In this document: positions 9,942 through 51,067 of the stretch, in pieces
Numbering within the stretch: position 1 is the first letter of the stretch
Layout of the letters: each line of letters starts with the position of its first letter
Origin: Clostridia bacterium
GTDB lineage: Bacteria > Bacillota > Clostridia > Oscillospirales > CAG-272
Reading direction: 5' to 3'
DNA: 64,000 nucleotides
NCBI GenBank assembly: GCA_017453255.1
Contig: JAFTKN010000028.1
Location: 1-64,000 of the forward strand
Made by a program: the position numbers and the translations under genes
Notes under the pieces: model-generated
Told to the model about the DNA's origin: nothing
Seen by the model: the letters and a program-made list of their open reading frames with translations, nothing else
The model's database searches: none

Positions 9942-11068
9942 AGAGCTTAGGACTTTATATCCACATACCCTTTTGCGAAAAAAAGTGTAATTATTGTGAC
10001 TTTTATTCTAAGGAAGGTAATGATGAGGACCTTAAAAGCAAATATGTAGATGCACTTTGCCTTCAAATAGAAAGAGAAGCAGAGCTATATAAAAATCATA
10101 TTATCGACACCATTTTCTTCGGCGGAGGAACACCCTCGCTTATTTCTTCAAGGGATATGGAAAAATTAATGCTAAGCATAAAAAAGTGGCTTAGCGTGGA
10201 CGAAAATGCCGAAATATCCATTGAAATCAATCCTAAAACGGTTGATTTTGAAAAGCTTACTACCTACAAAAAAATAGGAATAAATCGTATAAGCATCGGA
10301 CTTCAATCTACTGATGATGAAATGCTTAGGTGCTTAGGTAGAATACACACCTATAGTGATTTTCTTTCAACCTATAAAATGGTTAGAGAAGCTAACTTTG
10401 ATAATGTTAGCGTAGATTTGATGTATGGCTTACCGAGCCAAACAGAAAAAATGCTTTTAGATACATTATCAAAAGTCCTGTGCTTAGATATAGAGCATAT
10501 TTCTGCATATCTTTTGAAAATTGAGGAAAAAACCTATTTTGGAAAAATTAAAGATAAGCTTTCCTTGCCTGACGATGATACTGAATATGAAATGTATATA
10601 AAAATGTGTGAGCTTTTGGAGGAAAACGGCTATAATCAATATGAAATAAGCAATTTTTCTAAAGCTGGAAAAAGAAGCAGACATAATCTTAAATATTGGA
10701 AAAGCGAGGAGTATATAGGCTTAGGTCCAAATGCTCATTCCTATTTTGACAAAAGACGATATAGCTACAAGGCAGATACAGTAGCTTATATAAATGAGCT
10801 TTTAAAGGGGGACTTACCCGAAAAAATAAGCGAGGAGCAGGTTGAGTGCATAAGCGAAATGGACGAATATGTAATGCTTAAGCTAAGGCTAAGCGATGGA
10901 ATAGAGCTTTGCGAATTTGAAGAAAGCTTTGGAACAGAGCTTATTAATAAATATCCGTCTATTATGAAATATGTAAATAGTGGGCATATGAAATTAGAAA
11001 ATGGAAAATGCTATTTCACAAGGCAGGGCTTTTTCGTTAGCAATTACATTTTAAGTGATATACTATAG
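9938..11068 (+). CDS. hemW: HemW, radical-SAM heme chaperone-like protein
   Basis: 376-aa radical SAM enzyme of the HemN/HemW group. The [4Fe-4S] motif CEKKCNYC gives C13, C17, C20 just after the YIHIPFC motif, and GGGTPS marks the SAM site. It lacks the fourth N-terminal cysteine region and longer C-terminus of true coproporphyrinogen oxidase HemN, so HemW (heme delivery) fits better. Its TAG stop (11066-11068) is also the first three bases of a dispersed TAGCCTTAC repeat. Translationally coupled to lepA by overlap. Confidence 0.93.
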
Positions 11069-11112
11069 CCTTACTAAAATCAAACCAATTGAGTTCAATT
11101 CCCGTAAGACTA
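11066..11112 (+). repeat. TAGCCTTAC repeat, copy D (hairpin form)
   Basis: 47-bp imperfect palindrome. It starts TAGCCTTACTAAAATC and ends GTAAGACTA, with a central CAATTG. The left arm matches the other TAGCCTTAC copies. Its first three bases are the hemW stop codon, and it precedes the hemW terminator. Confidence 0.8.
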
Positions 11113-21768: not shown

Positions 21769-22026
21769 CTAAATAAAAAGTGTAATAACAAAGGCTATAA
21801 TAGCACCCAAAAGTAGTCCACAGCTAAATGTATAAATAAGCCTTCCAAATACTCCTTTTTTCCTTTTTGATATTTTAGTTGTACCGAGTATTCTTTCTGC
21901 CTCGCACAAAACTTCGCTTTCTATAAAATGCTCGCAATTATCCTTCATAACAAAATATGCCTCGTCAAAATAGGGGCTTTTGATATTTCTTAATTGCATA
22001 ATTCTTCTTTCGTATCCGTTTATCAT
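21769..22026 (-). CDS. Small membrane-anchored protein of unknown function
   Basis: I do not recognise a family. From the ATG at 22026 it is 85 aa: a charged N-terminal part with scattered Cys (MINGYERRIMQLRN, CEHFIESEVLCEAERIL), a basic stretch KISKRKKG and a C-terminal membrane helix (about 62-85). The frame extends 16 codons further to an ATG at 22074, but those codons (MENSLTYRAKKAWRN) come from a dispersed repeat, while GGAGG at 22032-22036 is spaced correctly for 22026. So the repeat inserted just upstream of, or supplied the leader for, this gene. Confidence 0.6.
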   Translation of the reverse strand: MINGYERRIMQLRNIKSPYFDEAYFVMKDNCEHFIESEVLCEAERILGTTKISKRKKGVFGRLIYTFSCGLLLGAIIAFVITLFI

Positions 22027-22036
22027 AAAATTCCTC

Positions 22037-22108
22037 CAAGCTTTTTTAGCACGGTAAGTCAAGCTATTTTCCATTTCAAACCAATTTGGTTCGATTTCCG
22101 TAAGGCTA
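22037..22108 (-). repeat. TAGCCTTAC repeat, copy A
   Basis: 72 bp. Read on the minus strand it starts TAGCCTTACGGAAATCGAAC, has the palindrome AACCAAATTGGTT, then TGAAATGGAAAATAGCTTG, and ends TAAAAAAGCTTG. It matches copies B (36562) and C (50997) over the whole length. It lies 34 bases after the spmB stop and touches the ribosome site of the 85-aa gene. Confidence 0.88.
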
Positions 22109-35988: not shown

Positions 35989-36552
35989 ATGATTACAGCA
36001 GGAGATTTTAGAAATGGTGTTACCTTCGAAATGGAGGGTAAGGTATATCAGGTTATTGAATTCCAACACGTTAAGCCAGGTAAGGGTGCAGCGTTTGTAA
36101 GAACAAAATATAGAGATGTTGTTACAGGTGCTATTCGTGAGGCTTCATTCAACCCAACAGCAAAGTTTGAAACAGTTCAGGTTGAGCGTAGAGAGCTTCA
36201 ATATAGCTATAACGATGGTGGTCTTTACTACTTTATGGATCTTGAATCCTATGAAATGATTCCAGTTGATTCAAACAAGCTTGGTGACAACTTTAAGTTC
36301 GTTAAGGAAATGGAAATGTGCAAGCTTTCATCAATTAAGGGTGAAATCTTTGCAGTTGAGCCACCAACATTTGTTGAGCTTGTTGTAACAGAAACTGAGC
36401 CAGGTGTACGTGGTGATACAGCTACTAACGTAACAAAGGCTGCTACACTTGAAACAGGTGCAGTTGTTAGAGTGCCAATCTTTATCAATGAGGGTGAAGT
36501 TATCAGAATTGATACAAGAACAGGCGAGTACCTTGAAAGAGTGAACAAATAA
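35989..36552 (+). CDS. efp: Translation elongation factor P
   Basis: 187 aa, normal EF-P length with three beta-barrel domains. The conserved tip loop reads [12 protein letters not shown] with lysine at position 32, the residue that carries a modification in many species. The C-terminal signature [20 protein letters not shown] is intact. It relieves ribosome stalling at polyproline. A TAGCCTTAC element begins 10 bases after its stop; no ordinary terminator is seen before it. Confidence 0.97.
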
Positions 36553-36561
36553 TTAGCAATT

Positions 36562-36838
36562 TAGCCTTGCGAAAACCGAGCCCAATTGGTTTAAAATGGA
36601 AAATAGCTTGCCTTACTATGTTAAAAAAGCTTGCTAATTTTTTAATTACCTGCACTTTTTTGCCTTGTAAACCAACCTATTTTCTCATTTGAAACTGTGT
36701 GCATCTTCGAACGAATAAATCAGTAGAGGATTTTTTTGAGCTTTGGTGCAGACAGTTAAAAACTTTCAAATCAAAGGTCGGACTAAGCCTCACCGATTTA
36801 TCGTTCCAAGACAAATGGGCTCGGTTTACGTAAGGCTA
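36562..36838 (+). mobile_element. 277-bp miniature inverted-repeat element (TAGCCTTAC family, copies B and F)
   Basis: Fills the gene-free stretch between efp and the CD1247-like gene. The ends are 23-base inverted repeats with two mismatches: left 36562-36584 (TAGCCTTGCGAAAACCGAG...) and right 36816-36838 (...CTCGGTTTACGTAAGGCTA). Both ends finish in TA, as expected for a TA target duplication of the IS630/mariner type. The left 72 bases (36562-36633) match copies A and C. The interior contains a second foldback: ATTTGAA + ACTGTGTGCATC near 36688-36708 pairs with GGTGCAGACAGT + TTCAAAT near 36745-36775. No transposase is encoded. Confidence 0.72.
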
Positions 36839-36843
36839 AGCGA

Positions 36844-36862
36844 CTGACGTATGGTCAGTCCC
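36844..36862 (+). promoter_or_regulatory. Hairpin in leader of CD1247-like gene
   Basis: Stem GACTGAC/GTCAGTC with loop GTATG, just after the element and about 35 bases before the ATG. No T-tract follows, so it is not a standard terminator. Confidence 0.5.
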
Positions 36863-36896: not shown

Positions 36897-37334
36897 ATGG
36901 AAATGGACATTCTTGAAAAATGCGCATATATTAAAGGCCTTGCAGAAGGACTTAACCTTGATGCAACTAAGCCTGAGGGTAAGGTTTTGAATGCAATTAT
37001 CGACCTTCTTTCAGATATTTGCAATACAGTTGCTGATATTGATGATGAGGTTGCTACTCTTGGCGATTATATTGAGGAAATCGACCACGACCTTGGCGAT
37101 GTAGAGGAATACCTCTATGACGACGAGTGTGATTGCGATTGTGAGGACGATTGTGATTGTTGTGATTGTGAGGATGATGAGTGTGATTGCGATTGCGACT
37201 GTGATTGTGAGGATTGTGATTACATGGAGGCTATGTGTCCAAGCTGTGGTGAAACAATTTGCTTTGATAACGAGCTTGATCCTGAGGATCTTATCTGTCC
37301 AGCATGTGGTAAGGCCTTCAAAGAAGATAAATAA
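36897..37334 (+). CDS. CD1247-like protein with Asp/Cys-rich repeat and zinc ribbon
   Basis: 145 aa. The N-terminal helical part (ILEKCAYIKGLAEGLNLD...EGKVLNAIIDLLSDI) matches the CD1247 N-terminal domain conserved in Clostridia. The middle (about 78-110) is a striking run of Asp, Cys and Glu built from DCDC/CDCE units. A C-terminal zinc ribbon follows (CPSCGE...CPACGKAF). It is presumably cytoplasmic and could bind metal; function unknown. No clear vegetative promoter is seen within the element upstream, though one may lie inside it. GTGAGGA upstream of the ATG. Confidence 0.8.
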   Translation: MEMDILEKCAYIKGLAEGLNLDATKPEGKVLNAIIDLLSDICNTVADIDDEVATLGDYIEEIDHDLGDVEEYLYDDECDCDCEDDCDCCDCEDDECDCDCDCDCEDCDYMEAMCPSCGETICFDNELDPEDLICPACGKAFKEDK

Positions 37335-50974: not shown

Positions 50975-50996
50975 AATTTATTTAGCAAAAAATTAT

Positions 50997-51067
50997 CAAG
51001 CTTTTTAACACAGTAAGTCAAGCTATTTTCCATTTCAAACCAATTGGGTTGGATTTTTGTAAGGTTA
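50997..51067 (-). repeat. TAGCCTTAC repeat, copy C
   Basis: 71 bp. On the minus strand it starts TAACCTTACAAAAATC, continues CCCAATTGGTTTGAAATGG and ends TTAAAAAGCTTG. It is nearly identical to copies A and B. Its first three bases are the TAA stop codon of the NptA paralog 1 gene. Confidence 0.88.

Follow-up and report, generated by a model that had tools for sequence, protein, structure and literature searches.

A gene-less mobile element of gut and rumen Clostridia with TA ends and a conserved branched fold

ERIC and other palindromic MITEs were recognized decades ago, but for most of them the mover is not known. In integrons, it is the structure of the single-stranded attC DNA and not its sequence that is conserved and recognized; attC sites differ in being recombination sites that belong to cassettes; they are not dispersed repeats that stand by themselves with a TA duplication. 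The ERIC, Correia/NEMIS and RUP elements are short, non-coding and dispersed, with inverted ends, TA termini and a target duplication, and their transcripts are predicted to fold back (PMC2229807). Among them, RUP has IS630-Spn1 as its presumed mover (PMC2229807). The CIR elements of Caulobacter and Brucella also combine TA termini with a two-armed predicted fold, and show no pairing between the 5′ and 3′ ends (PMC2229807). REP and REPIN sequences with their RAYT proteins are likewise non-autonomous palindromic DNA of which the folded strand is recognized (PMC8266576), and REPs are 20-40 bp long and carry tag tetranucleotides (PMC3733652).

The element described here lies in the window, by which we mean the whole 64,000-nucleotide stretch of DNA that was analysed. 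By its size class, lack of genes, inverted ends and TA termini it is a TA-class MITE of the ERIC, NEMIS and RUP type. It differs from these elements in its greater length, its closed two-armed covarying fold and the free variation of its ends: they are about 100-200 bp with long stem-loops, whereas this element measures 279 bp and has two arms in a fold that covaries over the order, and its ends, unlike theirs, vary between subfamilies. The TA termini and the two-armed fold are shared with CIR, but here the arms are closed by a 27-bp outer stem. Compared with REPs, the element is larger and is closed by TA.

The original prediction had described a 277-bp element with 23-base terminal repeats placed between efp and a CD1247-like gene, and this description holds: TAGCCTTGCGAAAACCGAGCCCA and TGGGCTCGGTTTACGTAAGGCTA are inverted repeats of 23 bases with 2 mismatches (36562..36838), and the two neighbours are identified by matches to the profiles TIGR00038 and NF045650 (Table 1). 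In the window, 36562-36838 begins with TAGCCTTGCG and ends with GTAAGGCTA (TAGCC...GGCTA), and adding one outer T..A pair extends the element to 36561-36839, or 279 bp. These 279 bp contain no ORF, in agreement with the earlier remark that the interval encodes nothing obvious, and there is no transposase gene. The folding energy of the element is -102.9 kcal/mol, compared with -58.0 +/- 4.4 in 200 shuffles (z -10.1), and a covariance model of the element family matches 36562-36838 with 294.5 bits.

Table 1. Features of the element, its neighbours and related fragments in the window.
Feature	Position	Strand	Evidence or remark
Element including the outermost T-A pair	36561..36839	+	Inverted repeats, covariance model, copies elsewhere; core TA...TA is 36562-36838
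Left TA, target-site duplication	36562..36563	.	Single TA at the site in relatives
Right TA, target-site duplication	36837..36838	.	Single TA at the site in relatives
Outer stem P1, 5′ strand (terminal inverted repeat)	36562..36588	+	27 pairs, 23 changed on both sides (15 copies)
Outer stem P1, 3′ strand	36812..36838	+	Same 27 pairs as the 5′ strand
Arm A of the branched fold	36589..36695	+	Conserved GGTTT, GTTAAAA and TTTTGCCTTG motifs
Conserved junction	36696..36703	+	Order-wide consensus AAACTGCnnnGCACC covers the end of arm A and the junction
Arm B of the branched fold	36704..36811	+	GCAG..CTGRCG..CAAG motif
efp, upstream neighbour	35989..36552	+	TIGR00038, 240.9 bits
CD1247_Nterm gene, downstream neighbour	36897..37334	+	NF045650, 79.6 bits
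Older hairpin GACTGAC-GTATG-GTCAGTC, outside the element	36842..36860	+	Counterpart of the GGGACCG..CGGTCCC hairpin of relatives
Left-end fragment of another copy	22037..22108	-	DNA match; extends into the ribosome-binding (Shine-Dalgarno) site region of a small ORF that begins near 22025
Left-end fragment of another copy	50987..51067	-	DNA match
47-bp foldback, two ends only	11066..11112	-	Sequence and covariance-model comparison

The element is dispersed within its own genome (1.76 Mb, 35 contigs), where DNA searches, on which the copy counts rest, found at least 7 full or near-full copies, both near-identical and diverged. Half-copies are located at six contig ends of this genome, the assembly breaking inside copies as is expected of a repeat. 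Among the fragments in the window, the one at 22037-22108 on the minus strand is a possible case of an element turned leader. DNA-level matches were obtained in 8 of the 38 genomes searched (own genome included), all of the same genus. For a wider search, the covariance model was built from 15 full copies (alignment A1) and fitted to the structure of the plus strand; as the element comes close to being a palindrome, the model scores on either strand. With it the element is detected in 18 of the 29 genus genomes and in at least 41 of 394 genomes of the order, distributed over 23 of 168 genera; the order-wide count is a lower bound, with the best four candidates per genome scored. The genomes are draft metagenome assemblies, which break at the element repeats. 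In a sample of the phylum, 3 of 398 genomes matched, namely the own genome and two with weak, short matches, of which one belongs to the same order. Scanning named genomes for the motifs yielded more than 120 matches, nearly all with titles of gut or rumen Clostridia, including Oscillospiraceae, Ruminococcaceae and Eubacterium sp.; the bacterium of the window is presumably one of this kind. The phage, plasmid and IMG/VR collections, as searched, contain no match to the element, and Rfam 15 has no matching family either at the gathering score or at permissive thresholds. The literature search, with subscription journals thinly covered, returned general MITE and REP papers only and no description of the element. 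It is a short mobile DNA element of gut and rumen Clostridia that was previously uncatalogued.

Comparison with relatives reveals the state of the efp locus without the element. In most relatives efp and the CD1247 gene lie side by side, and the short spacer between them usually contains a hairpin. The empty site at one such locus (L267) reads CAATTTAAGGGACCGCATTAATTCGGTCCCATAAATTTA (CAATT-TA-AGGGACC), as compared with CAATTTA-[element]-TAAGCGACTGACGTATGGTCAGTCCCATAAATTTA in the window (CAATT-TA-[GCC..GGC]-TA-AGCGAC). Since the empty site has a single TA, the element entered at TA, which now stands on both sides. A second empty site is seen by comparing L174 with L223, and there the left TA is now TG. 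Adjacent copies have exactly one TA in common (L295, L300, L132 and L038), as if one copy had entered the TA beside another. Exact TA..TA ends are found in 118 of 190 full copies; the ATGCC subfamilies show AT common to one adjacent pair (L108), and the AGGGCG subfamilies have ends that are not cleanly TA. A TA at each end is compatible both with a 2-bp duplication and with insertion abutting a TA. Taken together, the dispersed copies, the empty site, the TA ends and the shared TA between neighbouring copies identify a gene-less mobile element of the bacterial MITE type, and a mobile element was one of the options that had been offered for this interval.

We also noticed insertions into hairpin loops. 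In L128 (1501-1778) a copy is nested within one of a different subfamily, whose arm B it enters at the apical hairpin loop, and the empty state for this nested insertion is found in L336, L331 and others. Copies of the AGGGCG/GGGCGG subfamily often occupy the loop of a Rho-independent terminator, with flanks that pair and a T-run after them (L136, L137, L330, L331, L332, L334, L336, L341 and L346). The pairing is strong in 9 of 15 cases, compared with 24% expected from re-paired flanks.

The fold of the element follows one plan, in which a 27-bp outer stem leads to two long arms around a conserved junction. In A1 (15 copies), RNAalifold predicts 103 pairs, 66 of which are changed on both sides; the double-change cells number 163, compared with 37.9 +/- 4.6 in shuffles, and slid controls are far lower. 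A second, independent alignment, A4, of 30 copies from outside the genus, gives the same outer stem, arm A, junction and arm B. Here double changes occur in 63 of 69 pairs, with 510 cells compared with 152 +/- 11 in shuffles and a covariation score of 0.654 compared with 0.183; A4 was aligned by sequence only, and its copies were found with the A1 model, so that their choice leans toward the fold. These results show that compensatory changes have preserved the branched fold throughout the order; the check that had been proposed, covariation across homologous copies, turned out strongly positive in both alignments. The particular internal stem first proposed, ATTTGAA..TTCAAAT, fared differently: its bases are indeed complementary (36687-36705 with 36745-36771), but its covariation does not rise above that of shuffles (score 0.121 vs 0.110, with 133 of 500 shuffles as high, in 15 copies), and the conserved fold gives these bases other partners. 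The bases conserved order-wide are mostly interior (GGTTT, GTTAAAA, TTTTGCCTTG, AAACTGCnnnGCACC, GCAG..CTGRCG..CAAG and AGGC). The sequence of the outer stem is unconserved, and a single genome can combine several unrelated outer stems with interiors that are alike.

Selection of the pairing in RNA should leave more G-U pairs than A-C mismatches. For pairs predicted on both strands, a test that drops columns pairing on one strand only, the G-U to A-C ratio is 45:54 in A4 and 28:18 in A1. At fixed positions in the outer stem it is 93:69 (p 0.07), whereas tRNAs from the same loci, a somewhat biased control found by ARAGORN, give 32:7 at fixed positions. Because G-U is hardly favoured over A-C, pairing is apparently selected mainly in DNA, and recognition of the fold at the DNA level is likely. 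The excess of G-U in the genus set (28:18) and in the outer stem (93:69) leaves room for some selection at the RNA level. In 130 of 190 copies the plus strand gives the more stable RNA fold, by a mean of 5 kcal/mol; this comparison of minimum free energies correlates with G+T content and was not used alone. Of the suggestion that the interval is a structured RNA, therefore, the conserved structure stands, while the G-U pattern points mainly to DNA.

Several subfamilies have ends that resemble the T-arm and acceptor strand of tRNAs (e.g., L030, L113, L159 and L160). In the main subfamily, 19 of 22 bases of the ends agree with the T-arm of tRNA-Glu genes. Altogether 39 copies, belonging to 10 of 73 end-sequence clusters (counted without correction for descent), have GTTCGA at a distance of 19 bases from the end. 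An origin from tRNA was set aside as no more than a lead, as the interior has no tRNA and many subfamilies lack tRNA-like ends. A second short repeat, TGTCATTTCGAGCGTAG(T/C)CGAGAAATCTATTTT, was found several times near element fragments (L025, which is G000:C1:20300-23356, and L024).

At the efp locus, the copy starts about 10 bases past the efp stop codon, and its insertion has moved the older hairpin, together with the CD1247 gene, some 280 bases further downstream. A hairpin between efp and the CD1247 gene (GGGACCG..CGGTCCC, of varied sequence and with no T-run) is found in most genomes of the genus (36842-36860 in the window; L262-L276). Within the window copy of the element there are no promoter or terminator matches. 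As most relatives, too, have these two genes adjacent with no copy between them, nothing here speaks for the third option that had been offered, an element now used as a regulator. An effect on the downstream gene, if any, would be a by-product of the very stable foldback of the transcript. By analogy with NEMIS, the element might provide an RNase III target in the transcript (PMC2229807).

The reading that we favour, with a probability of about 0.75, is that this is a gene-less MITE of about 279 bp that is moved from elsewhere, inserts at TA and keeps a conserved branched fold, which its mover recognizes together with the motifs. A mover encoded elsewhere would act on the non-autonomous element; one strand of the whole element folds into the 27-bp stem, the two arms and the conserved junction; and what the moving enzyme recognizes may be this folded DNA strand and the internal motifs, the end sequences being of no account. 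The copy at efp was inserted between the stop codon and the older intergenic hairpin. We infer recognition of the folded strand from the unrelated outer stems in one genome, the constancy of fold and motifs, and the near lack of preference for G-U over A-C. A more specific version, which we hold tentatively and at less than even odds, is that the element is selected for a branched single-strand DNA shape, with a mover, of a kind not so far connected with the element, that reads fold and motifs, inserts at TA and sometimes into hairpin loops, and leaves the ends free provided that they are paired.

The search for candidate movers covered proteins of the DDE_3, DDE_Tnp_1 and Y1 families. Neither these searches nor checks of the flanks yielded an autonomous partner, and no sampled gene has the element or its ends beside it. 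The element could nevertheless be a TA-inserting MITE of the ordinary sort, derived by deletion from an IS630-type element whose transposase binds the ends by sequence while the fold is passive. In TA duplication, inverted ends and absence of coding it matches RUP, NEMIS and ERIC exactly, and the proposed link of RUP to IS630-Spn1 (PMC2229807) fits. We nonetheless regard this as unlikely: IS630-type (DDE_3) transposases are missing from all 29 genus genomes and occur in just 4 of the 40 genomes that carry the element, the inverted repeats that flank the transposase genes sampled (four IS630 cases included) are unlike the element ends, and variable ends around a conserved interior are the reverse of what is predicted. 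DDE_Tnp_1 proteins are rare in the genus, and the DDE_Tnp_1 and Y1 loci examined with the element model gave weak, short matches only. The element could also be of the IS200/IS605 or REP-like kind, with a Y1 (HUH) transposase or RAYT moving it in single-stranded form. Such enzymes recognize hairpins; insertion abutting a TA would mimic a TA duplication, one subfamily lies in terminator hairpin loops, and weak RAYT-sized Y1 proteins are present in some relatives. This explanation is about as improbable as the previous one. In contrast to REP/RAYT systems, no Y1 protein was found in the element's own genome (G000, 97% complete), nor in the copy-rich genomes G003, G017 and G039; Y1 proteins occur in 14 of 40 element-bearing genomes, and by eye no REP tag of the GTAG/CGTC type is seen at the element ends.

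Two further explanations concern the compensatory changes themselves, and both seem to us somewhat less probable again. If the element were a structured RNA gene or RNA regulator, present in multiple copies and occasionally mobile, the RNA would be the selected product, and the very strong covariation, the conserved unpaired motifs and the somewhat more stable plus strand would be accounted for. Against this, the order-wide set shows no preference for G-U over A-C, unlike tRNAs, there is no Rfam match and no promoter match in the window copy, copies stand in all orientations to neighbouring genes, and most relatives have no copy at the efp locus. Alternatively, the changes may be unselected, the inverted repeats being repeatedly corrected by template switching in replication. 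Such correction would give Watson-Crick covariation with no G-U bias, as observed, and fits an outer stem that is nearly perfect in most copies; it would also erase bulges, yet conserved bulges are retained throughout the order, as are loops and junction motifs. If copies persist only by moving, an intact structure would have to matter at some level.

With well over 100 full copies sampled, many outer stems and one fold, this order-wide family provides data with which recognition by shape can be tested against recognition by end sequence. Metagenome assemblies of gut and rumen Clostridia that are common break at the element as well, and it is best masked or annotated in them.
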